DNA from: Lachnospiraceae bacterium
GTDB taxonomy: Bacteria > Bacillota > Clostridia > Lachnospirales > Lachnospiraceae
NCBI GenBank assembly: GCA_017480565.1
Contig: JAFVAL010000020.1
Location: 29,412-93,411, forward strand
Length of the DNA stretch: 64,000 bases
Direction: 5' to 3'
A program made the position numbers and the translations under genes. Numbering within the stretch: the stretch's first letter is position 1; each line of letters starts with the position of its first letter. Under the pieces are notes generated by a model, which saw only the letters and a program-made list of their open reading frames with translations, ran no database searches and was not told the origin of the DNA. Shown piece by piece: positions 28,288-44,438 of the stretch.

Positions 28288-29691
28288 TCACGGCTTGCAA
28301 TTCCCACAGGGTGTATACCCCTGAGAAAGCAAGTCTTCTCTCGTTCCATGGAACTCCTGCTTATGTCCTTCGTAGATCTCACCAACATATTTACAGTCTG
28401 GCAAATGAAATTTCATGGACTTGGTATTCAAAACATAGTCTCTCGTCTCATTTTCTTCCGGATGCTCATCATCTTCCCCGGTCTCGCGAACCGCATACAA
28501 CTCGTGGTACGTCTGAAACGTATCCGCATCAGGGTTCTTCTCCGTCTCACAACGGATCGTCTCACCGTCACTTATGACCATGATCCTTCCCTGCAGATCC
28601 GTCCGGTAAAGCCTCGCTCCGATCGCCTTGATCCGATTTAAAAATGCATCCATCGGATGGCCGTGATCATTGTACGCGCCGCAGGAAGCGATGACAATCT
28701 CCGGCTGCACCGCCGCAAGAAACGCCTCGCTCGACGAATGTTCACTGCCGTGGTGCCCCGCTTTTAATACATTTGCCCGCACATCCACACCTAAGGCAAG
28801 GATCTGCGCCTCCTCATTCACTGTCGCATCTCCCGTTAACAAAAATGCATTCGCCCCGTGCGTGATCCGCACAACGATCGAGAGGTCATTTAAATCTTCC
28901 TCTTCCTCTGCGATCGGGCCTAGCACCTCGACCGTCGCACTGCCAAGCACGAAGGTGTCTCCCACCGCGGGCACGACAAGCTTTGCCCCGAAGCGGTCTA
29001 TATTTCCCAAAAGATTCTGAAAGCCATAGCCTTCGTACTCGGTCACCGGACTCCAGACCGTTTTTACATCTGTAACATAAAACGCGCCGGAGAGTCCGCC
29101 GACATGATCATCGTGCGGGTGCGTGGAGATCATCAGATCGATTTTCGTGATTCCAAGCTCTTTTAGCGTCGCGTAAATGATATCCGAAGAATGCGACGAA
29201 CCGCCATCGACGAGCATCGCCTGACCGCCGCAGGTGAAGAGAATCGCATCTCCTTGGCCAACATCCAGCACATACATGGTGAGGGGATCGATCGTTCGCG
29301 CTTCAGAGGTCTCTTCTGGAATCTCCTCTGACGATGTTTCCCTTGTCGTCTCTGCCTGCGCCTCACTCTCGGTCACAGTCACCGTGCTTTCCTGTGTGAC
29401 CGTAGTCGTCTCTACAGGCACAGCCTCCTGCTTTGGCCCACAGCCCGCAAGCAAGAAGATGACCACTTCGATCACCAGGATTGCCGGCACCCCCAGAGAA
29501 AACTTCGCCTTCTTCGTTTTATGATGAAAGAAAAGCATCCCGAGAAGCGCTCCGATCACGCCGAAAACCGCTGCGATCAGAAGCGTCCGCTCGGGAATGC
29601 GCCATTTGCCACGCTTGGCTTTGCTTTTGTCCACTCCGTAAAGAATGAACACGGCCAGATTCACAAGGCCATACAAAATATAAGGTATCAT
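28288..29691 (-). CDS. DUF1294 / metallo-beta-lactamase / Cys-rich tail fusion (ComEC-like MBL)
   Basis: 467 residues in three parts. Residues 1-80 are a DUF1294 membrane domain (VDKSKAKRGKWRIPERTL, then GALLGMLFFHHKTKKAKF), normally a separate ~90-residue protein. A Thr/Glu-rich linker follows. Residues about 135-400 are a ComEC-type metallo-beta-lactamase domain: YVLDVGQGDAILF, MISTHPHDDHVGG (metal-binding HxHxDH), LLTGDATVNEE and LKAGHHGSEHSSS. The C-terminus (MKFHLPDCKYVGEIYEGH, then GYTPCGNCKP) looks like the small Cys-based metal-binding domain often found after such hydrolases. The MBL part should be extracytoplasmic and may act on nucleic acid or nucleotides (inference). Starts 32 bp downstream of nothing else; upstream gene is the Mn-controlled protein. 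Confidence 0.87.
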   Translation of the reverse strand: MIPYILYGLVNLAVFILYGVDKSKAKRGKWRIPERTLLIAAVFGVIGALLGMLFFHHKTKKAKFSLGVPAILVIEVVIFLLAGCGPKQEAVPVETTTVTQESTVTVTESEAQAETTRETSSEEIPEETSEARTIDPLTMYVLDVGQGDAILFTCGGQAMLVDGGSSHSSDIIYATLKELGITKIDLMISTHPHDDHVGGLSGAFYVTDVKTVWSPVTEYEGYGFQNLLGNIDRFGAKLVVPAVGDTFVLGSATVEVLGPIAEEEEDLNDLSIVVRITHGANAFLLTGDATVNEEAQILALGVDVRANVLKAGHHGSEHSSSEAFLAAVQPEIVIASCGAYNDHGHPMDAFLNRIKAIGARLYRTDLQGRIMVISDGETIRCETEKNPDADTFQTYHELYAVRETGEDDEHPEENETRDYVLNTKSMKFHLPDCKYVGEIYEGHKQEFHGTREDLLSQGYTPCGNCKP

Positions 29692-30873: not shown

Positions 30874-30902
30874 ACTATAGTAAGTCTTTTTTACAAAGTC
30901 AA
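30874..30902 (-). promoter_or_regulatory. Promoter of the riboswitch transcript
   Basis: TTGACT (30897-30902), 17 nt spacer, TATAGT -10 (30874-30879). Confidence 0.85.
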
Positions 30903-31061
30903 CAGCTCTATTCTAAACAATTTATGAAATCGAAATTGTCCCAAACCAAAGCAAAGGATTGGTTACAAAAACTTAAGAAATATTTAATAATATATGGGCG
31001 ATCTATTTACAATCTTTAGGTATAATAAACAATGATTTTCAAACACCGGTGGGAGGGTGTT

Positions 31062-31127
31062 GTGGTCACGATCGAAGAACCAATCTTTAGGGATACGCAC
31101 GTTCTAAATCGTCATCTTTTATTATGA
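31062..31127 (+). CDS. Possible leader peptide upstream of the Dlt-like operon
   Basis: A 21-codon frame starts at GTG 31062, 4 nt after GGGAGGG, and reads MVTIEEPIFRDTHVLNRHLL, ending at TGA 31125-31127; it can also begin at ATG 31032 (31 codons). A TATAAT box lies at 31021-31026. It lies in the 438-base gap (30724-31162) before the adenylating enzyme. There is no terminator after it. It may be a short regulatory or chance reading frame; only the good ribosome site argues for it. Confidence 0.3.
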   Translation: MVTIEEPIFRDTHVLNRHLLL

Positions 31128-31162
31128 CACTCCCCCCGCTGCAAAATAGAATGGAGAATGTC

Positions 31163-32683
31163 ATGAATATCTTTCATGTATGCGAATATATGGAGAGATG
31201 GCTGACGGAGGATCCCGATAAAACGGCAGTGATTGATGAGAATGGTTCTGTCACATATGCACAGCTTGTGGATGCCTATCAGAGCATTGCGTCTGATCTG
31301 GCACGAAAAATTGAGCAGGGTTCCCCGGTAGCCGTCTACATGGACAAAGGGATTCCTGCTCTTTGTTCGTTTTTCGGCATTGTAAGTGCCGGCGGATTTT
31401 ATGTCCTGCTAAATCCGGATCTTCCGATTGCGAGACTCTCGCAGATTCAGTCAGTGCTGCAGGCACCTTTTGTCATCACCGATGAAGCACACTCTACGCA
31501 GGCAGCTTCCCTTTTTGCCCCCGATCAGATTCTTCGAATCGACGAGCTTGTAAAGACCCCGGTCGATCCGGTTCTTCTAAAGACTGTCCGGGCAAATGCA
31601 CTCGATACCGATCCGCTTTATGCGAACTTCACCTCAGGCTCCACAGGCGTGCCCAAAGGTGTGGTTGTCTCCCACCGGTCGGTCATCGATTTTATCGAGC
31701 ATTTTAGCGACATCTTTGCTTTTTCCAGGGAGGATGTGTTTGCCAACCAGGCTCCCTTTGATTTTGATGTGTCCGTGAAGGACATTTATACTGCGATGAA
31801 GCTTGGCGCAACCCTCGTGATCACGCCAAAGACGTTATTCTCACGCCCGGTACAGCTTCTAGACTGGCTCTGCGACCACGAAGTGACGGTCATGATCTGG
31901 GCGGTCTCTGCCCTCTGTCTGATCAGCACCTTCCACGGGCTGGACTATAAGACACCGACCAGCGTGAAAAAGATCCTCTTTAGCGGTGAAGTGATGCCCC
32001 TAAAGCATCTAAAGACGTGGCGGGCTCATTTGCCACAGACCATGTTTGTCAACCTTTACGGTCCGACCGAGATCACTTGCAACTGCACCTATCACATCCT
32101 TGAGGCAGAAAGAGACTATGCGGAAGGCATCCCGATCGGAAAGCATTTTCCGAACGAACAGATCCTTCTGTTAAATGAGGAAAATGAATGCATTACAGAA
32201 CCCGGCATCGAGGGCGAGATCTGCGTTCGCGGCACTGCGCTCGCGCTTGGCTATCTTGGTGCACCGGAGCAGACCGCAGCGGCCTTTGTACAGAATCCTA
32301 TAAATACACGCTATCCGGAGCTCATCTATCGCACAGGGGATCTCGGAAGATACGACGAGGCAGGCGATCTTTTCTTTAGCGGCCGCAGAGATCATCAGGT
32401 CAAGTACATGGGCCACCGCATCGAACTGCAGGAAGTGGAACGCGGCATGGCAAGCATTGACGGTGTGGAGCGAAGCTGCTGCATCTTCGATGAAAAAAAG
32501 CAAAAACTATATGGATTTTATCAGGGGACGATCGATAAGAATGCTCTGCATCAGGCGATGACTGCATTTCTGCCGGTCTTTATGATCCCTGGCATCTTAG
32601 ATAACGTCGAAGAATTTCCGCTCACCAAGAATGGAAAGATCGACCGCAAAGCCCTGTTGGAGCGTAAAAGGAGGCGCAAATGA
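31163..32683 (+). CDS. DltA-like amino acid adenylating enzyme
   Basis: 506 residues, the size of DltA. It should activate an amino acid as aminoacyl-AMP and load it on a carrier-protein phosphopantetheine. Core motifs are intact: A3 NFTSGSTGVPKGVVVSH, A4-A5 region APFDFDVSVKDIYTAM with the Asp that binds an alpha-amino group, NLYGPTEIT, A7 YRTGDLGRYD, hinge GRRDHQVKYMGHRIELQEVE and A10 Lys in LTKNGKIDRKAL. No carrier domain is attached. The ATG at 31163 is 6 nt after GGAG. It overlaps the decarboxylase-like gene by 4 bases and heads a five- or six-gene operon with MBOAT and SGNH genes. Whether the substrate is D-Ala, as for DltA, is uncertain because of the decarboxylase partner. Confidence 0.9.
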   Translation: MNIFHVCEYMERWLTEDPDKTAVIDENGSVTYAQLVDAYQSIASDLARKIEQGSPVAVYMDKGIPALCSFFGIVSAGGFYVLLNPDLPIARLSQIQSVLQAPFVITDEAHSTQAASLFAPDQILRIDELVKTPVDPVLLKTVRANALDTDPLYANFTSGSTGVPKGVVVSHRSVIDFIEHFSDIFAFSREDVFANQAPFDFDVSVKDIYTAMKLGATLVITPKTLFSRPVQLLDWLCDHEVTVMIWAVSALCLISTFHGLDYKTPTSVKKILFSGEVMPLKHLKTWRAHLPQTMFVNLYGPTEITCNCTYHILEAERDYAEGIPIGKHFPNEQILLLNEENECITEPGIEGEICVRGTALALGYLGAPEQTAAAFVQNPINTRYPELIYRTGDLGRYDEAGDLFFSGRRDHQVKYMGHRIELQEVERGMASIDGVERSCCIFDEKKQKLYGFYQGTIDKNALHQAMTAFLPVFMIPGILDNVEEFPLTKNGKIDRKALLERKRRRK

Positions 32684-33882
32684 ACGATCAGATTTTAGCG
32701 AAAGCCGCAGCGTTTGCTGGTACGTCCTGCTACGTTTTTGACCTTGACATGTTAAAGGAACGCATCACATATCTGCGGACACATTTGCCAGAAGATGTAG
32801 CGCTTTGTTATGCCGTAAAGGCCAATCCATTCCTTGCCGGCGCACTGGATCCGGTCGTGGACCGGCTTGAGATCTGTTCTCCAGGCGAACTTGCCATCTG
32901 CAATCGCCTGCACTGCACGTCCGGCAACTATGTGATCTCCGGTGTCTATAAGACGCCCGAAGTGATGCACGATCAGTTTTACCGCTCGGGAAATGAGATC
33001 TATACGGTGGAGTCTCTTGCGCAGTATGAGCGTCTAAAAGAGATTGCGCTCAGTGCCGAAAAGCCGATGCGTCTGCTCATCCGTCTCACCAGCGGCAATC
33101 AATTTGGCCTGGCGAAACATGACCTGGAAGCGGTGCTTGTAGACGCAATGCAGGAACCTCTTCTTCATGTTCTGGGACTCCAGTTTTTCTCCGGGACGCA
33201 AAAGACCTCCATTAAGAGGCTGAAAAAAGAACTCTCTGAGCTCGATGCCTATCTCGCCGAGTTAAAAGAGCGTTTTGGCTATGAAGCCGAAGAGCTTGAG
33301 TACGGTGCCGGCCTTCCTGTCTCGTATTTTCAAAGGGATGCATACGATGAGGATGCACACCTTGCCGGTGTCTCAGAAGCGCTTAACGCGATGACATTTG
33401 CCGGAAAAATCACGTTGGAACTTGGTAGAGCCATTGCGGCAAGCTGCGGCACTTACCTAACCAAGGTAGTCGACGAGAAAACAATCGATGGTCAGAAGTT
33501 TGCGATCACCGACGGCGGTATCCACCAGCTGACCTATTACGGACAGTTCATGGCCATGAAGCACCCGTACGTCCATCTTCTTACGCCGCATCACGGTGCG
33601 CAGGAAGAAGAATGGACCATTTTCGGGTCTCTCTGCACGATCAACGATATTCTCATCAAGCGCATCCCCTTTGCAGGGCTTCGCACGGGCGATATCCTGG
33701 CGTTTGAGCGCGCCGGGGCTTACTGCGTCACGGAAGGCATTGCACTCTTCTTAAGCATAGATCTGCCGGCAGTCGTGCTTTATGAGAATGGCGCACTTAC
33801 GTTAGCAAGAAACAACACACCGACGGATGGGCTGAACACGCCCGGGGATGCACCCCTGACCATCGCTTCAGAAACGCGATAA
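32680..33882 (+). CDS. PLP-dependent fold-III decarboxylase (DAP/ornithine decarboxylase family)
   Basis: 400 residues. The alanine-racemase-like barrel carries the PLP Lys47 in YAVKANP, the substrate-side segments DRLEICSPGELAICNRL, LQFFSGTQKT (where this family usually has HIGS), LELGRAIAASCGTY, and in the C-terminal domain Cys319 in FGSLCTINDIL plus RTGDILAFERAGAYCVTEG. The Cys followed by Asp at +4 and the GAY motif match decarboxylases such as LysA, and in particular the type seen in BtrK, which decarboxylates glutamate held on a carrier protein in butirosin synthesis. Its 4-base overlap with an adenylating enzyme gene and the carrier-protein gene nearby suggest a free or carrier-bound amino acid substrate (inference). 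It could instead be a racemase-like enzyme. Confidence 0.85.
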   Translation: MNDQILAKAAAFAGTSCYVFDLDMLKERITYLRTHLPEDVALCYAVKANPFLAGALDPVVDRLEICSPGELAICNRLHCTSGNYVISGVYKTPEVMHDQFYRSGNEIYTVESLAQYERLKEIALSAEKPMRLLIRLTSGNQFGLAKHDLEAVLVDAMQEPLLHVLGLQFFSGTQKTSIKRLKKELSELDAYLAELKERFGYEAEELEYGAGLPVSYFQRDAYDEDAHLAGVSEALNAMTFAGKITLELGRAIAASCGTYLTKVVDEKTIDGQKFAITDGGIHQLTYYGQFMAMKHPYVHLLTPHHGAQEEEWTIFGSLCTINDILIKRIPFAGLRTGDILAFERAGAYCVTEGIALFLSIDLPAVVLYENGALTLARNNTPTDGLNTPGDAPLTIASETR

Positions 33883-33892
33883 AGGAACGAAT

Positions 33893-34933
33893 ATGGGAGA
33901 AGAAAGAAAACGCCAGAGGAAGCGTAAAAAGAGTATTTCCCCCCTGCCCTTCGTCATCGCAGGCCTCGCACTGGTTGTTCTGATTACGGCGTCTGTCGTG
34001 GTTGACCAGAAGCACGTCAAACAACAGCTTGCTGAAAAAGGCGAGACGCAGACCACGGAGGAAAGTACGACAAAAGATCCTGCAAAGGATACGGAATCAA
34101 CGACCAAAGAAACCGCGACGAAACCTGCGGAAACCACAACACAGCCAGAATCGACAACGGCGCCGCAGGATACCACCGCGCCGGTCATTTCCGGGACCAA
34201 GGATCTGACCGTCACCGAGGGAGATACCGTTTCCTACAAATCCGGTGTCACCGTCACCGACGATACCGATCCGGATCCACAGCTTTCCATCGATAACAGT
34301 GCGGTCAAGCTCGATACGCCCGGCACCTACGACGTCATTTACACCGCTAAGGATGCCGCAGGTAACGTCTCAACTGTGACGATTACAGTCACGGTCAAGG
34401 AAAAAGTTGTCACCGACGAGACCACAAAAAAGCTCTATGAGAAAGCAGATGCTGTGCTGGCTGATATCCTCAAGGATGACATGGACGAGGTGCACAAGTG
34501 CTACGCGATCTGGCACTGGGTGCGTACCCATGTGCCGTGGTACGGCGGCAACGTCGATCATGACCCGGTCGATCAGGCCTTAAAAGGCCTCGCTGGCAAT
34601 GCAGGCGATTGTTACACCGACACAGTCACTTATCAGGTGTTGCTGGAGCGTGCGGGATTTGAATGCATTTTCATGCAGCGCTCGCCGGGCATCGGCTACC
34701 ATTACTGGCTGATGGTTAAGATTGAAGGCAATTGGTATCACTCCGATCCCGCACCGATCTATAAAAACCAATTTGTCTGCTTCCTCGGCACGGATGCGCA
34801 GCTAAAGTGGTTTACCGATGAGATGCGGCCAAACTACTACACGCACGATACCGAAGGAATTCCGACGACGCCGGATACACCGCGCGCCACCGTCACTTAT
34901 AAGGATGGCACGTACACGTTAAACGAAGATTGA
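33893..34933 (+). CDS. Surface protein with Ig-like and transglutaminase-like domains
   Basis: 346 residues. A basic N-terminus and one membrane anchor (FVIAGLALVVLITASVVV), a Thr/Glu/Lys-rich linker (about residues 45-90), a DUF5011/HYR-like Ig fold (DLTVTEGDTVSYKSGVTVTD through TYDVIYTAKDAAGNVST) and a C-terminal transglutaminase-like core: Cys in NAGDCYTDTV, His in GYHYWLMVKI and Asp in NWYHSDPAPI give the Cys-His-Asp triad. It faces outside. In this operon it may cross-link, cleave or acylate a wall component through a thioester (inference). AAAGGA precedes the ATG; it follows the decarboxylase gene by 10 bases. Confidence 0.87.
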   Translation: MGEERKRQRKRKKSISPLPFVIAGLALVVLITASVVVDQKHVKQQLAEKGETQTTEESTTKDPAKDTESTTKETATKPAETTTQPESTTAPQDTTAPVISGTKDLTVTEGDTVSYKSGVTVTDDTDPDPQLSIDNSAVKLDTPGTYDVIYTAKDAAGNVSTVTITVTVKEKVVTDETTKKLYEKADAVLADILKDDMDEVHKCYAIWHWVRTHVPWYGGNVDHDPVDQALKGLAGNAGDCYTDTVTYQVLLERAGFECIFMQRSPGIGYHYWLMVKIEGNWYHSDPAPIYKNQFVCFLGTDAQLKWFTDEMRPNYYTHDTEGIPTTPDTPRATVTYKDGTYTLNED

Positions 34934-34954
34934 TTTAGGAGGATGAAAGGCTTT

Positions 34955-36532
34955 ATGTCTTTTGTTTCATTTACGTTCTGGGGCTTTCTGCTCCTTCTGC
35001 TTCTGCTCTACTACCTGCTGCCAAAGCGGTTCCAGTGGAAGCTCCTGTTGATCGGAAGCCTCATTTTCTATGCCTTTGCAGGCCCCAAGTACCTCATCTA
35101 CATCGTCATCACGATCTTAAGCACCTGGGGCGCGGGCGTCCTCATGCAAAAGCACTACGATGCGCAGGATGCCTACCTAAAGGCCAACAAAACCGCCCTG
35201 TCGCGTGATGAAAAGAAGGCCTACAAGGCAGCTGTGGCAAAGAAAGCACGCCTGATTCTGACGGGCTGTCTGCTTTTAAACCTGGGCATTTTAGCGGTGA
35301 TTAAGTATTCCAACTTCTTTTTGGAAAATGTCTCCGCCCTGTTTCACGCAGACCTCGGCCGGACCTCTTTTCTCCTGCCTTTAGGCATTTCCTTTTTCAT
35401 GTTCCAGAGCTTAGGCTACGCGATCGATGTCTACCGGCGCAAATATCCCGCCGAGAAAAATCTGGCCAAATCCGCCCTCTTCACCTCATTTTTCCCGCAG
35501 GTGATCCAGGGCCCGATCAGCCGCTATGACCAGCTCTCTCAAACCCTTTACGCAGAGCACGCCTTCGAGATACAAAATATCAAAGACGGTCTCTGGCGTA
35601 TCACCTGGGGTTACTTTAAAAAGCTTGTCATCGCAGACCGACTTGCCCCTGCTGTCACGGCTTTAACGAAGAGTGCCGGTGAGTATCCCGGTGTCTATGT
35701 CGTAGCGACCATCATCTTTTATGCCCTGCAGATCTACGGAGATTTCACAGGCGGTATCGACATCACGATCGGTGTGGCAAGGCTCTTTGGCATCGAAGTC
35801 ACCGAAAACTTCAACCGGCCGTTCTTTTCCAAGAACATCGCAGACTACTGGAGACGCTGGCACATCACGATGGGATCGTGGTTTCGAGATTATCTTTTCT
35901 ACCCGGTCTCGTTAAGCAAAGGCGTCCAGAAGCTCTCTAAGTGGTGCAAAGCGCATATCGGAGAGAATTTTGGCAAGAAATTGCCTCTGTATATTTCTAC
36001 AATTGTAGTATGGCTTGCCACCGGACTTTGGCACGGTGCAGCCTGGCATTTTATCGTCTGGGGAATGGTAAACTGTGTCATTTTACTCATTTCCCAGGAA
36101 ATGACACAGCTCTACCAAAAGTTTCACGAACGCTTCGCTTTCTCCAACACCAAGTATTGGGAATGGTTCATGATCGTGCGTACCTTCTTTATGATGGGCA
36201 TGATCCGCGTGCTGGATGTCTACCAGAGCGGCGCGCTCACCGCAAAAATGTTATTTAGCATTTTTACCACACCCAACTGGGGCGCGCTCTTTGACAGAAG
36301 CTTCTTATCGCTAGGCCTTTCCGGGGCAGATTATCTGGTTGTCTTTTTCGGAACCTTGGTGATCTGGATCGTCGCGCTCATCAAAGGCCGCAAACCGGTG
36401 CTCTCCTGGCTGGAAGAAAGACCGGCTGGACTGCGCTATCTATTGTTCGGGCTTCTCGTCGTCTCGATCCTGCTCTTCGGAGCCTATGGGATCGGCTATG
36501 ACGCAAGCCAGTTCATTTACAATCAATTTTAA
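34955..36532 (+). CDS. MBOAT family O-acyltransferase, DltB-like
   Basis: 525 residues, polytopic. It starts MSFVSFTFWGFLLLLLLLYY, the hallmark of AlgI/DltB-type MBOATs, and continues with LLIGSLIFYAFAGPKYLIYI. Motifs include FFPQVIQGPISRYDQL, YALQIYGDFTGGIDITIG, FNRPFFSKNIADYWRRWHIT and the catalytic His in LATGLWHGAAWHFIVWG. Such enzymes take an acyl or aminoacyl group from a cytoplasmic thioester donor and pass it to an outside acceptor polymer. It follows the transglutaminase-like gene and precedes the SGNH-like gene, the DltB-DltD order. The earlier ATG (34943) abuts the GGAGG and is not used as start. Confidence 0.95.
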   Translation: MSFVSFTFWGFLLLLLLLYYLLPKRFQWKLLLIGSLIFYAFAGPKYLIYIVITILSTWGAGVLMQKHYDAQDAYLKANKTALSRDEKKAYKAAVAKKARLILTGCLLLNLGILAVIKYSNFFLENVSALFHADLGRTSFLLPLGISFFMFQSLGYAIDVYRRKYPAEKNLAKSALFTSFFPQVIQGPISRYDQLSQTLYAEHAFEIQNIKDGLWRITWGYFKKLVIADRLAPAVTALTKSAGEYPGVYVVATIIFYALQIYGDFTGGIDITIGVARLFGIEVTENFNRPFFSKNIADYWRRWHITMGSWFRDYLFYPVSLSKGVQKLSKWCKAHIGENFGKKLPLYISTIVVWLATGLWHGAAWHFIVWGMVNCVILLISQEMTQLYQKFHERFAFSNTKYWEWFMIVRTFFMMGMIRVLDVYQSGALTAKMLFSIFTTPNWGALFDRSFLSLGLSGADYLVVFFGTLVIWIVALIKGRKPVLSWLEERPAGLRYLLFGLLVVSILLFGAYGIGYDASQFIYNQF

Positions 36533-36547
36533 AGGAGGTCCATGAAC

Positions 36548-37603
36548 ATGAAAATAAAATGGCTCAGGCCTCTGTTATTCGCGGTTCTTTTGCTTCTTAC
36601 GCTCTGGTTGTTGCAGCGTCTTACGATGCCCAAATACATCCATGAAAATGAAGAAGGCGTTCTGGCCGCCGAGTATTATGACAATGCAGGCGACAACGAT
36701 ATTCTCTTCATCGGGGACTGTGAAGTCTACTCAAACTTCTCCCCGATCACACTCTGGAAAGACTACGGCATCACCAGTGTGATCCGTGGTACGCCGCAGC
36801 AAATGATCTGGCAGTCCTACTACATGCTTGAGGATACCCTGCGTTATGAAACGCCAAAGGTGGTCGTCTTTAATGTTTACTCGATGTGTTATGACAAGTC
36901 CGAGAGCGAAGCCTACAACCGGCTTGCACTCGATGGCTTGCGCTGGTCCAAGGTCAAGGCAGACGCGGTTCGCGCCTCGATGGAAGGAAAAGAAACCTTT
37001 GCCAGTTATCTCTTTCCCCTGCTGCGGTTCCATTCCCGGTGGAAGGAGCTTGAAAAGGACGATTTCACTTACCTCTTCCGCTCCGAACAGCTTTCCCACA
37101 ACGGCTACGTGATGCGTGTCGACACCAAGCCGGTCACGACCCTGCCGCAGCCGATTCCCCTTGCAGACTATCGCTACAGTGATACCTGCTGGGGATGGCT
37201 TGACAAGATCCGGGACTGCTGCAAGGAACACGGGATCTCTTTGATCTTAATCAAGTCCCCCTCCTGCTATCCAACCTGGTATGACGAGTGGGACGCACAG
37301 ATTGCAGACTATGCTGCGGCAAATGACCTCACTTACATCAACTTCCTTGCACACCAGGAAGAAACCGGGATTGATTATACCACCGACACATACGATGCCG
37401 GACAACACCTAAACCTCTCTGGCGCTGAAAAAGCAAGCGCTTGGTTTGGCAAGATTTTAGCTGAGCAGCCTGGCGTCCTTGACCGAAGATCCGATGACCA
37501 GATCGCCTCACGCTGGCAGGAAAAGATCTTGTTTTACGAACAGATGAAAGCCTCACAGGAAAAACAATTAGAAGAAACCGGAGCCGTCACAAGCTACCGA
37601 TAA
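36548..37603 (+). CDS. SGNH/DltD-like protein with Cys in the nucleophile position
   Basis: 351 residues with one N-terminal signal anchor (LLFAVLLLLTLWLLQRL). The block-I region is ILFIGDCEVYSNFSP, where GDS/GSS-type SGNH proteins have Ser; here Cys58 stands there. Block V looks intact (TYDAGQHLNLSGAEKASAW, giving the Asp/His pair), and a VVVFNVYSMCYDKSESE stretch lies at the expected Asn block. DltD and AlgJ/AlgX-type partners of MBOATs act outside the membrane in the final acyl transfer. The Cys suggests thioester chemistry, or loss of hydrolytic function (inference). Second ATG chosen: it is 9 nt after GGAGG, the first is 3 nt. Confidence 0.8.
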   Translation: MKIKWLRPLLFAVLLLLTLWLLQRLTMPKYIHENEEGVLAAEYYDNAGDNDILFIGDCEVYSNFSPITLWKDYGITSVIRGTPQQMIWQSYYMLEDTLRYETPKVVVFNVYSMCYDKSESEAYNRLALDGLRWSKVKADAVRASMEGKETFASYLFPLLRFHSRWKELEKDDFTYLFRSEQLSHNGYVMRVDTKPVTTLPQPIPLADYRYSDTCWGWLDKIRDCCKEHGISLILIKSPSCYPTWYDEWDAQIADYAAANDLTYINFLAHQEETGIDYTTDTYDAGQHLNLSGAEKASAWFGKILAEQPGVLDRRSDDQIASRWQEKILFYEQMKASQEKQLEETGAVTSYR

Positions 37604-37622
37604 TAGAAGGAGAAGAAAGAAA

Positions 37623-38147
37623 ATGAAACGATTTGTATTTGCAGTAGTATTCACACTCATGCTCATCACCCTTGCCGCCTGCGGCAAGAAAGACGATGTC
37701 GCAGAAACCACAACAAAGCCCGCAGCTTCTGAGCAAGAAACGAAGAAAGCAGATGAAAACTGGTATTTCTTAAAAGGGGATGTCAAAATCGAGATTGGTG
37801 CGCCCGCGCAGCCGATCATTGACGCTCTTGGGGAGTATCAAAGCTCTTACGAAGCACCCAGCTGTGCCTTTGATGGCATGGATGTCGTCTACACCTATCC
37901 CGGCTTTGAAGTCTTAACCTACGTAGTCGACGGCGAAGCAAAGATCAGCGGCGTGGTCTTAAGAGACGATACCGTAGAGACCGTCGAAGGCATCTGCATC
38001 GGCTCCTCCAAGGCGGATGTCGAAACTGCTTACGGTAAACTAGAAGAAGGAGCGACCAGCCTTCAGGTTACCAAGGGCAACTGTGAGCTGCTCGTGATCC
38101 TGACAGACGATGTCGTCTCCTCCATTCAGTACCTTGTAGCGGATTAA
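37623..38147 (+). CDS. Lipoprotein, last gene of the Dlt-like operon
   Basis: 174 residues. The signal peptide ends in lipobox LAAC, followed by a Thr/Lys linker. The mature part has two similar halves built around IEIGAPAQPIIDALG and GICIGSSKADVETAYG, a pattern resembling the SmpA/BamE-like fold with its G-x-S-x-x-D-V-x-x-x-x-G turn. No family is firmly recognised. GGAG lies 7-8 nt before the ATG, and the gene follows the SGNH-like gene by 19 bases, so it belongs to the operon. It may bind or position the modified polymer outside (inference). Confidence 0.75.
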   Translation: MKRFVFAVVFTLMLITLAACGKKDDVAETTTKPAASEQETKKADENWYFLKGDVKIEIGAPAQPIIDALGEYQSSYEAPSCAFDGMDVVYTYPGFEVLTYVVDGEAKISGVVLRDDTVETVEGICIGSSKADVETAYGKLEEGATSLQVTKGNCELLVILTDDVVSSIQYLVAD

Positions 38148-38178
38148 ACCTCCATTCCGGAGTCCTTGATCTCTGCCA

Positions 38179-38409
38179 TCAGTCCTCTTCCGACAGGCGT
38201 TCAATCAACGCCCAAAGGTTTTTCGCAGAATTGAAGTTGTCTGGGACGATCTCCACCGTGGGAATCATCACATCAAAGGCATCTTCAATCTCTGCGACCA
38301 GAGAAATAATCGAGAGAGAATCTAAATATCCTCCGTCAATCAATTCGTCACATGTCTCATAATCGACGCCTGGCTTGATCTCTTCTAAGATCTCTAACAA
38401 TTCATCCAT
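38179..38409 (-). CDS. Acyl/aminoacyl carrier protein (DltC-like)
   Basis: 76 residues, an acidic four-helix carrier protein. The phosphopantetheine Ser31 is in GGYLDSLSIISLVAEIED, the DSL/M motif of carrier proteins. It starts MDELLEILEEIKPGVD with AAAGGAG 9 nt before ATG 38409. It is the only carrier protein near the DltA-like enzyme and is the expected acceptor of the activated amino acid. Oddly it is on the opposite strand, converging on the operon's last gene, with its own strong promoter, so its supply is controlled apart from the operon. A longer in-frame upstream extension lacks a ribosome site. Confidence 0.9.
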   Translation of the reverse strand: MDELLEILEEIKPGVDYETCDELIDGGYLDSLSIISLVAEIEDAFDVMIPTVEIVPDNFNSAKNLWALIERLSEED

Positions 38410-38467
38410 AGAACAACACTCCTTTCCCGTTTTCTTCGATTCCGGCTGGAATCCTTTACAATTATCT

Positions 38468-38496
38468 ATTATAATCGATGTGAAATGACTTCTCAA
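38468..38496 (-). promoter_or_regulatory. Promoter of the carrier protein gene
   Basis: TTGAGA (38491-38496), 17 nt spacer, perfect TATAAT (38468-38473). Confidence 0.85.
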
Positions 38497-38594
38497 CCGT
38501 CAAATTCTACAGTTGCAACCACCGGTTGCGCAATTGATAAGCCGGATTTCTGGTCTGCAACCCGCCTTCCGGATATACTAAAGCCGTACAAAAC

Positions 38595-38606
38595 AAAACC
38601 GGTTTT
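38595..38606. promoter_or_regulatory. Palindrome upstream of the XRE regulator gene
   Basis: AAAACCGGTTTT is a perfect 12-bp palindrome 33 bases before the start codon, and a related ACCGGT lies at about 38520. TATACT (38574-38579) precedes it. It may be an autoregulatory operator. Confidence 0.4.
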
Positions 38607-38638
38607 ACATTTACATAATCCGAATGGAGGTATGACAA

Positions 38639-39625
38639 ATGATTCTTGCAGATAAAATTATTGATTTAAGAAAAAAGAATGGCTGGTCTCAGGAAGAGCT
38701 GGCCGAGATGATGGGAGTCAGCCGACAATCCATCTCCAAATGGGAAGGTGCACAGTCGGTGCCGGATCTTGCCCGCATCGTAAAGCTCGCTGAGATCTTT
38801 GGTGTCAGCACCGATTACTTATTAAAGGATGACCTCGAACAGACCGATGTGGCCATCGTCTCACAAGAGGACTATCCGCTTCGCACCGTCACCATGGAAG
38901 AAGCGAACGCATTTTTAAACTATCGCAGCATGCTCTCCGGCCGTGTTTCCCTCGGTGTGTTCCTTTGCATCTGCTCCCCGATCCTTCTGATTATTCTGGA
39001 AGAAGCGCATGAAGCCCATCTTTTAGCCCTTTCAGAATCACAGGTAAACGGGATTGGCTTAGTCGCCATGTTTACGATGATTGCAGCCGCAGTCGCACTC
39101 TTTGTCACGGCAGGGATTCAGGGAAATCGCTTTGAATACTTAGAAGAGCTTCCTCTGGATACCCTCTACGGTGTGGACGGTCTCGTGACGGACCGCAGAG
39201 AAAAATACCAGCCGACTTATACAAGGCGTCTGACCACAGGCATCGTGCTCTGCGTCGCATCGACCATTCCGATCTTTTTAACCAGCGCACTCTTCGGAGA
39301 CCATGATCTCTATCTGTCGATTGCGGTCTGCATCCTCTTACTTCTCGTCGCGGTTGGCGTGCTCTTGATTGTACAGGTCTCCATCATCTGGGGCAGCTTC
39401 CACATTCTTCTGGAAGAGGGAGATTATTCCAGAGACCAGAAGGAAATGCGTAAAAAGCACGGTGTCTTCTCCGGCATCTACTGGGGCCTGATGACAGCCA
39501 TCTATCTGGGGCTCAGCTTTATCACAGGGCGTTGGGAGCGAACCTGGATCATCTGGCCAGTGGCAGCCGTTGCCTACGGAGCAATCTTTGGCATCGTGTC
39601 TCTGCTGCAGAAAAACAAAAACTAA
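38639..39625 (+). CDS. XRE-family regulator with C-terminal membrane domain
   Basis: 328 residues. An N-terminal helix-turn-helix ([40 protein letters not shown]) is typical of Firmicute Xre/Cro regulators, continuing [12 protein letters not shown]. From about residue 95 there are four to five hydrophobic segments ([86 protein letters not shown]), so it is a membrane-tethered DNA-binding protein. It may sense an envelope condition. GGAGG lies 8 nt before the ATG. Its targets are unknown; the palindrome upstream may be one. Confidence 0.9.
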
Positions 39626-39730: not shown

Positions 39731-41818
39731 ATGAGACATGCGAACTTTAACCCTTATGAGGGATCCGAAGACTATATCTTTATCAGTTATGCTCATAAAA
39801 ATGCAGAGGAAGTCGGCAGACTTCTTGACCGCATGCATGATGCAGGCTACCGCATCTGGTATGATGACGGAATAGCTCCCGGCAGCGAATGGCCGGAATA
39901 TATCGCACATCATTTAAACAAAGCCGCCGTCTGTCTGGCGCTGGTCTCCCCGGCATCCATCGAATCTGCAAACTGCCGCCGTGAGATTACCTACGCGCTC
40001 TCCAAGCAAAAGCCTTTCCTGGGTGTCTTTTTGGAGCGCACGGAACTCTCTCCCGGTATGGAACTGCAGCTTTCTGCACAACAGTGCATTCTCCGCTACA
40101 ACTATCGCACCGAAGATGAATTCTACCAGAAGCTGATCGACAGCGAGATTCTCTCCTCCTGCAGAACCATTCTCGTTGCTCCGGCAGCGCCGGAACCGGA
40201 GGACGAAACGCAAATTCGCACCGACGGCCCTGCTCCGATCTCGGATGCAGACATGTCTGCTGTGGAACATATGACCACCATAGCAGAAGAAGAAGCGGAT
40301 GCGCCGAAGAAAAAAGCGAAAAAGGCGAAAGCCGGCAAATCTACAGAAGGTAAGAGAAAGCGTAAGAAATGGCTCCTTCCTGCCATTCTCGCTGCTATCA
40401 TTCTTCTGATTGCAATGCCTTTCCTTCTTCCGAAAGCAACGGAAGTAAAGTTCACAGAGGATAAGAAAACCTCTCTTTCGACGAGCTATCTGGATCTGAA
40501 AGATATGGAGATCACAGACCAATCCATCAAACAGTTAAATAAGTTAAAGAAGCTCACCTCTCTGAGTTTCACAAACTGTACCTTTACTGGAGATTTTGCC
40601 TCGTATAAACGGTTCTCCGGATTACGAAGCCTCTCCCTCGAACATTGCGACGGTATCACCGATCTATCCTTCCTTCAGAAGATAGAAAACGTAAGTGATC
40701 TGACACTGATTGATGTAGGCCTGACCGATGAGATCACATCTCTCGCAGAATTAGCAAGTCTTAAAAAGGTAGACTTCTCTGAGAATGCAGATTTCACGCA
40801 GATTGCCTTACTTCCGCTTCCTCAGTTGACGAAGTTATCGATCGCCAAGACTGGCGTCAAGGACATATCCGCTCTTTCAGAGGCAACTGCCCTCAATACG
40901 TTTTCCGCTTCCGGATGCACTTTAGAGAATGCGGAGAGCCTTGTCTCCTTGACAAAGCTCACGACGCTTGATCTATCCGATACCAACGTCAGTTCGTTTT
41001 CTCAGCCGCTCGCCTCGCTTGCCATTGCAGATCTCAACCTGGAGGGATCCGAGTTCACAAGCACCGAAGCATTTGATAATCTGACGGTCTTAACCTATCT
41101 CAATATCAGTGACACAGCAATCCAGGAAGCCGCCTGCATCGCAAAGAGTAAAGACTCCCTGGCCTACTTTGCAGCGAGAAACTGTACTCTCACAGATGAA
41201 ACACTGGAGGATCTATCGCATTGCATGAAGATGAAAGAGCTTGATCTCTCCGGCATTTCTCTGAAAGAATACGCCACATATTTAGGAACAATGAAGACGA
41301 ACAGTCAGATCGATCTTCGGCTCGCACAGTCTATGCCTGAACTCACCTATATTCGTGCAGAAGGCTGTGGTTTGACCTCCCTTGACGGACTAGGCAGCAA
41401 GAAGAAACTTCACACAGTTTTGGTTGCCGGTAATCAGATTACGGATATCAGTGATATCGGATCGCTTGATTCCGGTGCTATCCTCGATCTTAGGAAGAAT
41501 CAGATTAAAAACGTCAGCTTCCTTCCTTCCGTCAGTTATCGGATGCTTCTCTTAAATGAGAATCCACTCGACCCGGCGACCATTCCCACCGGTTCCGGCC
41601 ACAACTACACGTTGCTGACACTGGACTATCAAAGTAATCTGCTGGCCTCAGATATCGCCAATACAAGCGTCAGTTACTGGTATCTGGTCGGTGTCCCTGC
41701 AGACCAACAGTTAAAAACGCAAGATCAGCTCGGTAGCTACCGGACCAACTTTGTTACCTCCGAAGCCATCGATTCTATGCTTGATACCTACGGCTACGAT
41801 CCGTACCATTGGAAATAA
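39731..41818 (+). CDS. TIR domain - transmembrane - leucine-rich-repeat protein
   Basis: 695 residues. Residues 13-140 are a TIR domain: box 1 YIFISYAHKN, then GYRIWYDDGIAPGSEWPEYI, and SANCRREITYAL with Glu85 at the place of the catalytic Glu of NAD-cleaving TIR proteins. A charged linker (KKKAKKAKAGKSTEGKRKRK) precedes one transmembrane helix (about 213-232). The remaining ~460 residues are irregular leucine-rich repeats of the internalin-like type with recurring L-x-x-L-x-x-S/L-D units (LTKLTTLDLSDTNVSSF, LHTVLVAGNQITDISDI), predicted to be outside the cell. No signal peptide is present: the membrane helix is internal. The gene has its own terminator on both sides. Confidence 0.88.
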   Translation: MRHANFNPYEGSEDYIFISYAHKNAEEVGRLLDRMHDAGYRIWYDDGIAPGSEWPEYIAHHLNKAAVCLALVSPASIESANCRREITYALSKQKPFLGVFLERTELSPGMELQLSAQQCILRYNYRTEDEFYQKLIDSEILSSCRTILVAPAAPEPEDETQIRTDGPAPISDADMSAVEHMTTIAEEEADAPKKKAKKAKAGKSTEGKRKRKKWLLPAILAAIILLIAMPFLLPKATEVKFTEDKKTSLSTSYLDLKDMEITDQSIKQLNKLKKLTSLSFTNCTFTGDFASYKRFSGLRSLSLEHCDGITDLSFLQKIENVSDLTLIDVGLTDEITSLAELASLKKVDFSENADFTQIALLPLPQLTKLSIAKTGVKDISALSEATALNTFSASGCTLENAESLVSLTKLTTLDLSDTNVSSFSQPLASLAIADLNLEGSEFTSTEAFDNLTVLTYLNISDTAIQEAACIAKSKDSLAYFAARNCTLTDETLEDLSHCMKMKELDLSGISLKEYATYLGTMKTNSQIDLRLAQSMPELTYIRAEGCGLTSLDGLGSKKKLHTVLVAGNQITDISDIGSLDSGAILDLRKNQIKNVSFLPSVSYRMLLLNENPLDPATIPTGSGHNYTLLTLDYQSNLLASDIANTSVSYWYLVGVPADQQLKTQDQLGSYRTNFVTSEAIDSMLDTYGYDPYHWK

Positions 41819-41832
41819 ATCTTTAACTAACA

Positions 41833-41870
41833 AACCCGTCTGAATCGACTTCAGGCGGGTTTTATCTTTT
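41833..41870 (+). terminator. Terminator of the TIR-LRR gene
   Basis: Stem AACCCGTCTGAA / TTCAGGCGGGTT around TCGAC, followed by TTATCTTTT. It overlaps the 3' end of the convergent SRAP gene. Confidence 0.85.
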
Positions 41871-42462
41871 CAAATACCATCTCTGTCAGTGCTCTGTGAA
41901 GTAACTCCTCCGGTCTGCTATCCGGACGAATCCAAGCATCCACTGCGTCTTCCGGCAGAATCAACGGCATCCGGTCATGAATAAAGCGAATCTCCTCTCC
42001 CGGCTCTCTGGTTAAAACAACAAAAACCGGCAAGCCTTCTTCGATTCGGTAAAGACCGCAAAGCCAGGTGACACTCACATTTTTAGGCTGAATCATGTAC
42101 TTATCACCGGTCCTTACACTGCCATCACTTGCCTTCTTATGCTCCCATTCAAAATACCAGGAAGCCGGCACGATGCAGCGATGCTTCTCCCAGGCCTCTT
42201 TAAATGTTGGTTTTACGGCCGCACTTTCGCTTCTGGCATTCACAAGCAAGGTCTTGCCGGAGAATCCCCATTTCATTGGAAAAACTGCCCTCTCGCCGCG
42301 TCTGTTTGGCGCAATCACAGGCACAACATCCGTAGGAAAGATCTCTCCCTGCGTCTTAATTCCCTTCTTCTCCTGCCAACGCTCCACCAGCCCAGACTGC
42401 ATCATCTCCTCAACGATCGGCCTAAGCTCGGGCGAAGCCTCTGCCCAATATCTGCAGCACAC
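41851..42462 (-). CDS. SRAP family protein (YedK/HMCES-like)
   Basis: 203 residues. The protein starts with GTG then Cys-Cys (MCCRYW; Cys2 becomes the N-terminal nucleophile that forms a thiazolidine with abasic sites). Other conserved parts are MKWGFSGKTLLVNARSE, CIVPASWYFEW (Glu), WLCGLYR, VLTREPGEEIRFIHDRMPLI with the conserved His, and DAVDAWI. SRAP proteins protect abasic sites in single-stranded DNA and are SOS-linked in bacteria. GGAGG lies 7 nt before the GTG. It is the last gene of the SOS cassette with the LexA-like, UmuC-like and YolD-like genes. Confidence 0.95.
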   Translation of the reverse strand: MCCRYWAEASPELRPIVEEMMQSGLVERWQEKKGIKTQGEIFPTDVVPVIAPNRRGERAVFPMKWGFSGKTLLVNARSESAAVKPTFKEAWEKHRCIVPASWYFEWEHKKASDGSVRTGDKYMIQPKNVSVTWLCGLYRIEEGLPVFVVLTREPGEEIRFIHDRMPLILPEDAVDAWIRPDSRPEELLHRALTEMVFEKIKPA

Positions 42463-43040: not shown

Positions 43041-44438
43041 CTATGCTCTGTGGCCTCCGATCTGCCGGTTGCGTTCCAGCGTGGTTGCTCCCTTTAACAG
43101 ATCTGTTCCCTTAAAGACCGCACCCGCACCAAACCTTTTACGCACCTCGATCATCGCTCCCTGAAGCTTCCGGTCTCGCTCTAACATCTCCTCGTCCACA
43201 AACAGGCTCAGTTGATAGACACCGTAATCTTCCCGGACATCATTCGCACAGACACCGATCTTGCGGTAAAGCAGTCTGTGATCTGTCTTCTCATCAAACT
43301 GCCTCATCATCGGTGGCAAAATCAGATGCAGATTGTTCGTCTCGGTGGCAAGTTTGATCGTCCCTCCACTGTGCTTCGGGTGCAATCTGCCGTAGAAATC
43401 AATGCAGATCGGTCCCTCGTACTCCGGGCACACTTCCAGACTCTTATAGTCAAAAGAAACCCACCAGCTTACGCCACGTGTCACGAGATTCTTCGCAAAC
43501 AAATCCGTACATAGACTCTCGGTCATCTCCCGAAAGACAATCTTCGCCTCCTCATAGGGGTAGGGTCTCGGCAGTACCTGGCCGTTGCTCAAAGAATGTC
43601 CGACGCTGCGGTAACCCTTGATATCCTGCATCGTCACGGGCTCTATCCCCCAGGCATGGTCAATGATGATCTCCCCGTCGATCCCAAAGGTCTTGTAGAA
43701 GAATTCCTCGTTCCACTGGGTTCTCGCCGCGACATCTCCCATCGTAAACATCCCTGCCGACTGCAGACGTCTCGCCTTGCCAGGCCCAATCTGCCAAAAG
43801 TCCGTCAACGGCCGATGATCCCAGAGCAAATACTTGTAAGAATCCTCGTTAAGCTCCGCAATCCGCACACCATCCTGGTCTGCCGGTGCCTTCTTCGCGA
43901 CAATATCCATCGCAACCTTCGCAAGATACAGATTCGTCCCAATCCCTACGGTGGCAGTAATCCCAGTCGTCTTTAGCACATCCCGGATCATCGTGATCGC
44001 CATCACATGGGCAGCATTCAGGCCACACGCCTTCGCCTCCTGCTCATAAAAATGCAGGTATCCCGTACAATCGATAAAGCACTCGTCGATGGAGTATATG
44101 TGTACGTCCTCCGGCGCGACATAATGCAGATAAATCCCGTAAATCTGCGCAGAGATCCGCTCATATTCCGCCATGCGCGGGATCGCAGTGATATACTCGA
44201 TCCGCGTATGATGTATTCTCTCATACTCTCTGATCTTCTGCTTCGCCTCGAAAAGTCTCGGCCTGGAAGGCACACCGATGGCCTTGAGTGCAGGAGATAC
44301 CGCAAGACAAATCGTCTGGTCAGAACGCGTCGCATCTGCAACCAAAAGGTTCGCCCGCAGCGGATCCAATCCCCGGTAGACGCACTCCACCGAGGCATAG
44401 TACGACTTTAAGTCAATGCAAATATACGTCCGTTCCAT
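43041..44438 (-). CDS. Y-family DNA polymerase, UmuC-like
   Basis: 465 residues. The translesion polymerase signatures are YICIDLKSYYASVECVYRG (first catalytic Asp), IYSIDECFIDCTGYL (SIDE/D motif), TATVGIGTNLYLAKVAMDI and the HhH-like FWQIGPGKARRLQ. A UmuC-type C-terminal half (TRGVSWWVSFDYKSL, RKIGVCANDV, QLSLFVDEE) distinguishes it from plain DinB; the QLSLF stretch resembles a beta-clamp-binding motif. It lies between the LexA-like and YolD-like genes and should be SOS-induced. Confidence 0.95.
   Translation of the reverse strand: MERTYICIDLKSYYASVECVYRGLDPLRANLLVADATRSDQTICLAVSPALKAIGVPSRPRLFEAKQKIREYERIHHTRIEYITAIPRMAEYERISAQIYGIYLHYVAPEDVHIYSIDECFIDCTGYLHFYEQEAKACGLNAAHVMAITMIRDVLKTTGITATVGIGTNLYLAKVAMDIVAKKAPADQDGVRIAELNEDSYKYLLWDHRPLTDFWQIGPGKARRLQSAGMFTMGDVAARTQWNEEFFYKTFGIDGEIIIDHAWGIEPVTMQDIKGYRSVGHSLSNGQVLPRPYPYEEAKIVFREMTESLCTDLFAKNLVTRGVSWWVSFDYKSLEVCPEYEGPICIDFYGRLHPKHSGGTIKLATETNNLHLILPPMMRQFDEKTDHRLLYRKIGVCANDVREDYGVYQLSLFVDEEMLERDRKLQGAMIEVRKRFGAGAVFKGTDLLKGATTLERNRQIGGHRA

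Follow-up and report, generated by a model that had tools for sequence, protein, structure and literature searches.

What would be placed on the cell surface by a locus that has every enzymatic role of the Dlt pathway together with a PLP decarboxylase? D-alanylation is a main means by which Gram-positive bacteria tune their surface charge and resist cationic peptides. In the window, the stretch of 64,000 nucleotides of Lachnospiraceae DNA analysed here, the region 31163-38409 encodes the four Dlt roles (adenylator, carrier, MBOAT and SGNH-like protein) in open frames, as the first-pass annotation had claimed. We favour, as the probable answer, a Dlt-like envelope modification with on-carrier decarboxylation, in which the carrier is charged with Asp or Glu through the side-chain carboxyl and an envelope polymer then receives beta-alanine or GABA. 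From the genes and their relatives we infer the substrate, the order of decarboxylation and loading, the acceptor polymer and the physiological role, which would be that of a cationic shield, as for D-alanylation.

Six genes lie on the plus strand. The stand-alone adenylating enzyme (506 aa, 31163-32683; start ATG at 31163, with a second in-frame ATG at 31124) is followed by a BtrK-like fold-III PLP decarboxylase (400 aa, 32680-33882), and the 4-base overlap (ATGA) previously claimed for the two genes is indeed seen, at 32680 versus 32683. Next come a membrane-anchored Ig-like and transglutaminase-like protein (346 aa, 33893-34933), the MBOAT acyltransferase (529 aa, 34943-36532), an SGNH-fold protein resembling DltD and PatB (353 aa, 36542-37603) and a small lipoprotein (174 aa, 37623-38147). 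The last gene, absent from the earlier annotation, has a LAAC lipobox recognized by eye, and its product matches no known family. The carrier protein (76 aa, 38179-38409) is encoded convergently on the minus strand, so that the term operon, originally applied to the whole locus, does not extend to the carrier gene in the window. A putative promoter-like site (TTGAGA-17-TATAAT, 38468-38496, minus strand; 11 of 12 matches in a consensus scan alone) lies 5' of the carrier gene.

The adenylator scores above the Pfam and NCBIfam cut-offs for AMP-binding (227.8 bits) and the amino acid adenylation domain TIGR01733 (341.2 bits), but below those for DltA (272 versus 559.85 bits for TIGR01734; 280.2 versus 476 bits for PRK04813). 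In the pocket comparison with DltA that the annotation had proposed, L198 and C269, two residues that give the D-Ala pocket its shape (PMC11253843), are replaced by V203 and S274; together with the sub-cut-off scores, this rules out DltA as the identity of the enzyme. The adenylator tree likewise separates the window from the DltA of a relative (L143 in genome G033), with support of 100/100, L143 being a long branch. By alignment, the pocket comprises D202 (235), V203 (236), K206 (239), S274 (301), C306 (330), N307 (331) and K492 (517), with GrsA numbering in brackets, and these residues are conserved across the cassette relatives. D202 corresponds to the Asp that the earlier annotation took to bind an alpha-amino group. 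The features of the VinN type, namely, Asp at 235, Ser at 301 and, at 236, a residue bulkier than Ala, are represented by D202, S274 and V203, respectively; in VinN itself, F231 and S299 have been reported at the places of DltA L198 and C269, and substitution A236V has been reported in all sequenced beta-selective TycA variants. By contrast, K330/R331 of VinN correspond to C306/N307 in the window. VinN is further marked by a beta13-beta14 loop shortened by one residue; among the cassette and DltA sequences compared, the GPTE-to-PIG span is 20 residues in the window, versus 21 in one DltA, and is also 20 in the racemase-type cassettes.

The signature V/L236-K239-S301-C330-N331 is found in 82 of the 84 decarboxylase-associated adenylator rows versus 3 of the 25 remaining rows (Fisher p about 1e-17, the rows being related to one another). 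The presence of Lys at position 239 in those 82 rows suggests that the adenylator may bind a second carboxylate. K239 is also retained in 15 of the 25 rows from loci without the decarboxylase and thus marks a wider family rather than decarboxylation. Furthermore, two decarboxylase-less loci (L152 and L157) have the identical signature in genomes (G003 and G058) that yielded no close decarboxylase relative, so the pocket does not strictly depend on the decarboxylase. Conversely, one decarboxylase cassette (L043) has the deviating code I-A-R.

The decarboxylase, with K47 as the PLP lysine and a C319-T320..D323 motif, exceeds the cut-offs for Orn_DAP_Arg_deC (57.1 bits) and Orn_Arg_deC_N (45 bits), and its best NCBIfam match, TIGR03099 (162.3 bits), lies below the cut-off of 478.45. 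Its best matches in the PDB are BtrK (92.5 and 92.2 bits), followed by SbnH (85.5) and LysA (80.6). BtrK also occupies the top row of the structural ranking, tied with LysA within 1 Z unit, at 24-25% identity over the structural alignment; the assignment to the BtrK kind is thus upheld by sequence and, with this tie, by structure. Cys319 and Asp323 are present in all 94 cassette rows. The residue following the Cys is Thr or Ser in 94/94 cassette rows (CT in BtrK) versus Glu in 11 of 14 LysA-like rows, and RP..Y occurs in 0/94 versus 10/14, respectively; we take the post-Cys Glu (CES type) and RP..Y to be LysA hallmarks. The cassette enzyme scores below the cut-off of the LysA model TIGR01048 (144.3 versus 297.9 bits). 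It is not the LysA of this genome, which carries a separate LysA-type gene, 25% identical to the decarboxylase and with RPAMY and CEN.

The MBOAT exceeds the PF03062 cut-off (65.8 bits), carries the His in LWHGAAWH and scores 143.8 versus 375 bits against the DltB model TIGR04091. It ends in FIYNQF (36512-36529), corresponding to FXYXXF, the C-terminal acyl-shuttle motif (PMC12148441). A relaxed form, [FPLM]XYXX[FY], forms the extreme C-terminus in 87 of 87 MBOAT rows, and the strict motif in 6 of 87, the first Phe often being Pro among the relatives. No separate DltX-like frame was detected: among the frames of at least 20 aa on both strands between 30900 and 38700, only the MBOAT ends in a motif of this type. 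Neither Pfam nor NCBIfam gives a significant match for the SGNH protein (best, Lipase_GDSL_2, E 0.13), whose fold was assigned from an AlphaFold model (mean pLDDT 71.4); Cys60 in GDC (codon TGT, 36719-36721) occupies the nucleophile position, and the D..H block reads DAGQH. The carrier passes the cut-off of PP-binding PF00550 (21.9 versus 20.8 bits), falls below those of two DltC models and has a phosphopantetheine site DSL, with Ser31 invariant in 14 rows. The Ig/transglutaminase-like protein, located 5' of the MBOAT as originally described, exceeds the cut-off for Bact_surface_Ig-like PF16403 (31.9 bits), falls just under that for Transglut_core PF01841 (22.9 versus 23 bits) and retains the Cys-His-Asp positions (GDC / YHYW / HSDP).

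Conservation of the gene order in other genomes, which had been named as a check, was assessed in the 80 loci that were retained, after scanning of public genomes, for having decarboxylases most similar to that of the window. The order adenylator-decarboxylase-carrier-MBOAT-SGNH is kept in 71 of the 80 (69 exactly; L065 and L083 have an additional gene), which indicates that the arrangement is not a chance neighbourhood, although the loci, picked by decarboxylase similarity, are a biased sample. The adenylator gene lies upstream of the decarboxylase gene in all 80, with a median gap of -4 bases (77 loci; starts taken from the longest frame). In three of the 13 relatives of one set (L044, L046 and L047), adenylator, decarboxylase and carrier genes are present, with no MBOAT in the fetched stretch. 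Of the 54 loci with enough upstream sequence, 26 encode both an OmpR-type regulator and a histidine kinase at most four genes upstream; the window has no adjoining pair of this kind. The only neighbour clusters found in more than six of the 80 loci are the histidine kinase (35 loci) and the OmpR-type regulator (29), plus two putative transporters, typed by eye as ABC (15) and MATE (8). Among 393 genomes sampled from the class, 21, including that of the window, contain the decarboxylase at E 1e-90 or better, and we found no description of the cassette in the open-licence papers searched.

The transfer genes also occur in sister cassettes that lack the decarboxylase, and five of 25 such loci encode an Asp/Glu-type racemase; both racemases tested also exceed the cysteate racemase (CuyB) cut-off, so that their substrate is not certain. 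Judging from gene content and trees, the window is a chimera of the two cassette kinds. The SGNH nucleophile is Ser in 79 of 81 rows, with Cys limited to the window and L053; among rows from decarboxylase-less loci, Cys occurs in 10 of 17. Relatives of the Ig/transglutaminase-like protein occur in 10 of the 25 decarboxylase-less loci, as well as in L052 and L053, and those of the lipoprotein in eight of 25 and in L053. No DltA above the cut-off was found in the window's genome or in 20 other decarboxylase-bearing genomes tested; DltA above the curated cut-off is rare in the lineage whether or not the cassette is present, so that this absence adds little. Among 98 relatives of the window, one has such a DltA. 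More tentatively, and with somewhat less than even confidence, we propose a modular family of carrier-dependent envelope aminoacylation systems, in bacteria that lack a recognizable DltA, in which an adenylator-carrier-MBOAT-SGNH core would be combined with swappable tailoring enzymes (the BtrK-like decarboxylase, the Asp/Glu-type racemase and, it may be, GNAT or radical SAM proteins), yielding beta-alanyl or GABA esters versus acidic D-amino acids depending on the branch, with the window as a two-branch chimera bearing a Cys-nucleophile SGNH protein.

In the mechanism that we favour for the window, the adenylator would activate the side-chain carboxyl of Asp (or Glu) and load the carrier; the BtrK-like enzyme would then strip the free alpha-carboxyl from the carrier-bound residue to give beta-alanyl- (or gamma-aminobutyryl-) S-carrier. 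The MBOAT would shift this cationic group onto the Tyr within the FXYXXF at its C-terminus, a fusion that, we propose, makes DltX unnecessary, and the SGNH protein would receive it on Cys60 (Ser in most relatives) and esterify an envelope polymer, probably of the teichoic-acid type.

An identical surface product would arise if the acidic amino acid were decarboxylated in free form and the resulting beta-alanine or GABA were then loaded. The genomes that keep the adenylator signature without a close decarboxylase relative fit this order, and a pocket with V236/S301 would suit beta-amino acids whether or not they carry an alpha-carboxylate. However, BtrK, the closest characterized enzyme, decarboxylates Glu while it is bound to the carrier BtrI (PMC7857480), VinO likewise acts after loading of 3-methylaspartate (PMC11284099), and Lys239 suggests a second carboxylate in the adenylator pocket; hence, we regard the free-first order as unlikely, although it retains some weight. 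Less probable still is meso-diaminopimelate as the substrate, with one alpha-carboxyl used for loading and the opposite end decarboxylated to give lysyl-S-carrier and a lysyl ester with two positive charges: the decarboxylase has its fold in common with DAP decarboxylase, and K206 could bind the distal carboxylate, but the LysA-type Glu and RP..Y are missing from all 94 cassette rows, residues that a carrier-bound substrate might not need, and the racemase of the sister loci is of the Asp/Glu type.

The acceptor might instead be a small secreted molecule or a lipid, given that adenylator-ACP-decarboxylase sets work in antibiotic pathways (VinN-VinL-VinO; BtrI-BtrK). We consider this highly improbable, as the MBOAT-SGNH systems named in PMC12148441 modify peptidoglycan, teichoic acid, alginate, cellulose or wall polysaccharides, the commonest cassette neighbours are the kinase, regulator and transporter-like clusters, and the genome encodes an LtaS-like protein. 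We assign the lowest probability, marginally below the preceding one, to a racemase-like PLP protein supplying a D-amino acid to a cassette for Dlt-like D-aminoacylation: the protein does exceed the cut-off for PF01168 Ala_racemase_N (33.1 versus 24.1 bits), and the sister loci use a racemase from another family, yet both decarboxylase domains score higher than PF01168, Cys319 and Asp323 are universal in the cassettes, and the 35 matched PDB sequences, including 2j66 (BTRK), are all named decarboxylases.

Should on-carrier decarboxylation by the cassette be confirmed, the envelope of the bacteria carrying it would bear a beta- or gamma-amino acid formed on a carrier, a chemistry that PMC11284099 and PMC7857480 describe for antibiotic pathways alone. 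The cassette would then offer a testable explanation of surface-charge control in dlt-less Clostridia, and defined enzymes for placing new amino acids on polymers, with the racemase-bearing sisters as a natural control on the substrate question. The cassette, which many gut bacteria carry, is a possible alternative to D-alanine decoration.

Among known systems, VinN-VinL-VinO, which makes the vicenistatin starter unit, shares with the window an adenylator, a free-standing ACP and a PLP decarboxylase, and VinN, like the window enzyme, combines Ser at 301 with a bulkier residue than Ala at 236. However, VinN has K330/R331 where the window has C306/N307 with K206 at 239, and the Vin enzymes feed a polyketide synthase, whereas the window set includes an MBOAT-SGNH pair. 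Of the butirosin enzymes BtrI, BtrJ and BtrK, the last is the nearest solved relative of the window decarboxylase, but the Btr product goes to an aminoglycoside, and BtrJ belongs to a different enzyme class from the window adenylator. The exosortase-A-associated decarboxylase and ligase (TIGR03099 and TIGR03098) represent both enzyme families in the context of exopolysaccharide export, but the window proteins score far under the respective cut-offs of 478.45 and 592.35 bits. The O-acetyltransferases of the MBOAT-SGNH type, such as PatA-PatB, share the FXYXXF motif fused to the MBOAT and the SGNH partner; PatA, however, uses acetyl-CoA, and according to PMC12148441 no carrier protein is present in other MBOAT-SGNH pathways, whereas the cassette has one. 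Finally, the Dlt pathway (DltA, DltC, DltB, DltX and DltD) has in common with the window the stand-alone adenylator, carrier, MBOAT, SGNH transferase and C-terminal FXYXXF; the window differs in an adenylator that scores under the DltA cut-offs and has V203/S274 in place of L198/C269, a shuttle motif on the MBOAT rather than on DltX, Cys for Ser in the SGNH protein, a carrier gene on the other strand and the extra PLP decarboxylase.

The decarboxylase and its gene neighbourhood recur in other genomes. In a protein comparison across 97 relatives, the window's own genome excluded, 13 carry a close decarboxylase relative, all with E <1e-60 and clearly separate from LysA-type proteins, with the next match at 2.6e-18. 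The adenylator gene lies directly upstream in 12 of the 13, the thirteenth locus (L041) stopping at a contig end; in L043 the carrier gene is placed between the two, and in L047 the adenylator is split over two frames. An MBOAT gene is present in nine of the 13 loci; L036 stops at a contig edge, and three loci (L044, L046 and L047) combine adenylator, decarboxylase and carrier with no MBOAT within the stretch examined. Among 393 genomes sampled evenly from the class, each at least 90% complete, the decarboxylase was detected at E 1e-90 in 21, including the window's own.

A scan of named genomes yielded at least 578 candidate relatives, the best 80 of which were retained; by record titles, these 80 include Clostridia, Coriobacteriia (Enorma, Collinsella), Acetobacterium wieringae, Ruminococcus bromii and Anaerocolumna, along with one entry under Streptococcus suis. 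The first-pass annotation had made its reading dependent on conservation of the gene order, and this is borne out: among the best 80 of at least 578, the order adenylator, decarboxylase, carrier, MBOAT, SGNH is exact in 69 loci and occurs with one extra gene in two more (L065 and L083), a recurrence that rules out a chance gene neighbourhood. Within the same 80, L115 and L125 have a doubled MBOAT-SGNH pair with the carrier between the two pairs, as if a single loader supplied two transferases; three loci at contig ends consist of adenylator and decarboxylase alone; no SGNH gene was detected in L127 (contig end) and L131; and window-type cassettes are represented by L052, truncated by a contig end, and L053, which is complete and shares the window's inverted carrier gene. 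Intergenic gaps are short (medians of -4, 11, 1 and 12 bases, with starts taken from the longest frame). In 26 of the 54 loci whose upstream sequence is long enough, a histidine kinase and a response regulator of the OmpR type are encoded at most four genes upstream, and in 17 of these both genes share the strand of the cassette. Such a pair would suit an envelope-stress response; none lies beside the window's own cassette. Outside Clostridia, a full cassette with the upstream regulator pair is also present in L084, whose genome is recorded as Streptococcus suis SSHP-D.

The cassette is likely a carrier-dependent envelope aminoacylation system. A canonical Dlt operon was weighed on the adenylator. 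Profile searches against curated cut-offs place the window adenylator in the amino-acid adenylation family, not in DltA, and no DltA exceeds the cut-off in the window's genome. Whether or not the cassette is present, the lineage almost lacks DltA over the cut-off: it is found in one of 98 relatives and in none of 35 further genomes (20 carrying the decarboxylase and 15 lacking it), so that these counts say little about mutual exclusion of cassette and DltA; G098, which lacks the decarboxylase, has a DltA score of 549 bits, narrowly under the cut-off. In the tree, the window adenylator stands apart from the sole over-cut-off DltA, itself a long branch, with support of 100/100. The alignment matches D197, L198 and C269 of DltA to D202, V203 and S274, so that the amino-group-binding Asp noted at first pass is indeed kept but the pocket is not that of DltA, Leu and Cys being replaced by Val and Ser. 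Together, these results rule out a canonical Dlt operon. The window's genome contains one additional MBOAT locus and one LtaS-like protein (76.3 bits, far under the cut-off of 970); a search with PF04464 (TagF-type) gave no hit there. Misannotation of LysA is likewise ruled out, since the genome has its own LysA-type gene (G000:C42, 25% identity) with RPAMY and CEN motifs that are missing from the cassette members.

Adenylator positions 235-517 were set from GrsA motifs, with I245 at position 278, and the DltA positions were confirmed on the alignment. According to PMC11253843, VinN has F231 and S299 at the two changed positions, and Val occupies the first of them (236) in all sequenced beta-selective TycA variants. 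The signature V/L236-K239-S301-C330-N331 is shared by 82 of 83 decarboxylase-associated adenylators, with L043 as the true exception (the L083 row of the 84-row set, an unrelated neighbour gene, was dropped), and by two of 24 decarboxylase-less adenylators (three of 25 before L167 was dropped, genome G002 having the decarboxylase on another contig, L041). L152 and L157 carry this decarboxylase-type signature in genomes in which no close decarboxylase relative was found. K239 was considered as a mark of decarboxylation and not upheld, because 15 of the 25 decarboxylase-less rows share it; K206 (position 239) may hold the alpha-carboxylate of the substrate.

For a PLP alpha-decarboxylase to act, the alpha-carboxyl must be free and adjoin a free amino group, and a carrier-bound substrate must therefore hang by another carboxyl. 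Such attachment follows from the chemistry and fits the VinN-like adenylator residues. We consider it probable that the decarboxylase acts on the carrier-bound residue, and our best guess for the product is beta-alanine or GABA, beta-alanine being placed slightly ahead because the adenylator pocket is VinN-like. No paper on such a cassette was found in searches of the open-licence literature.

Most of the 25 decarboxylase-less adenylator loci taken for comparison have carrier, MBOAT and SGNH genes beside the adenylator. Ten of the adenylators form a clade (support 100/99) with the code D-A-C/S-L-K, Gly at 301 and G-M at 330-331. An Asp/Glu racemase family gene occurs in five of the 25 loci (L146, L148, L154, L159 and L160), all of this clade, and in none of the sequence stretches examined for 93 decarboxylase loci. 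Two of these racemases, examined by profile, scored 147.6 and 144.2 bits against PF01177 and also exceeded the cut-offs of TIGR00035 and of CuyB (cysteate racemase); an Asp/Glu- or cysteate-type racemase near the adenylator suggests D-acidic aminoacylation of a surface polymer. Two further adenylator-carrier loci differ in content: L147 has a GNAT protein (7695-8486) between adenylator and carrier, and L145 (7972-11706) encodes radical SAM, cytidylyltransferase-type and, by eye, sialic-acid-synthase-like proteins.

The window itself combines the two kinds of cassette, with its loading module from one and its transfer module from the other. Its adenylator groups with the decarboxylase types, matching L052 at 81%, L053 at 78% and L036 at 70% identity, whereas its MBOAT falls inside a 13-row set of racemase/transglutaminase types plus L053 (support 100/99), with a best identity of 51% in that set versus 39% to decarboxylase types once L053 is set aside; the tree row P_L065 represents the additional MBOAT at locus L065 rather than the one belonging to its cassette. 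By identity alone, the SGNH protein behaves similarly (58% to racemase/transglutaminase types versus 28-34% to decarboxylase types). Relatives of the transglutaminase-like protein (33893-34933) occur in 10 of the 25 decarboxylase-less loci and, among the 93 decarboxylase loci, in L052 and L053 only; those of the lipoprotein (37623-38147) occur in eight and in L053 only, respectively, the L053 gene being overlapped by a frame on the opposite strand. The inverted, stranded carrier gene (38179-38409, minus strand) may be a scar of module joining. Elsewhere, the window encodes a protein with an N-terminal TIR domain and leucine-rich repeats (39731-41818), a SRAP (YedK-type) protein (41851-42462) with a Y-family DNA polymerase gene nearby in the same orientation (43041-44438), and a fusion of a DUF1294 membrane part and a metallo-beta-lactamase-fold domain (28288-29691).

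At the nucleophile site of the SGNH protein (gene 36542-37603, codon 36719-36721), Cys is found only in the window and L053 among 81 decarboxylase-cassette rows, the other 79 having Ser, versus 10 of 17 decarboxylase-less rows (L146, L148, L153, L154, L156, L158, L159, L160, L161 and L165; GDC, with GNC in L161). Cys-type SGNH proteins are thus tied to transglutaminase/racemase-type cassettes, and on these counts the replacement comes with the transfer module; a Cys-type protein is possibly an acyl-Cys transferase. In Foldseek, the SGNH model gave low TM-scores (0.32-0.38 by query length among the first rows), the top rows being partly designed scaffolds, and the VIA alignment of the model spans residues 40-320.

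The window MBOAT ends in FIYNQF. A terminal [FPLM]XYXX[FY] is present in all 87 MBOAT rows, the strict FXYXXF in six, and no other frame of at least 20 aa in 30900-38700 terminates in the shuttle motif. According to PMC12148441, the Tyr of the FIYNQF-like motif resides in Dlt on DltX, whereas PatA has the motif as part of the MBOAT itself, where it is proposed to pass the acyl group on to the SGNH protein. The cassette differs from Dlt and resembles PatA in having the motif on its MBOAT; unlike the other MBOAT-SGNH pathways, which that paper describes as lacking a carrier protein, it encodes one. The cassette thus couples a carrier-fed front end with a fused-shuttle back end.
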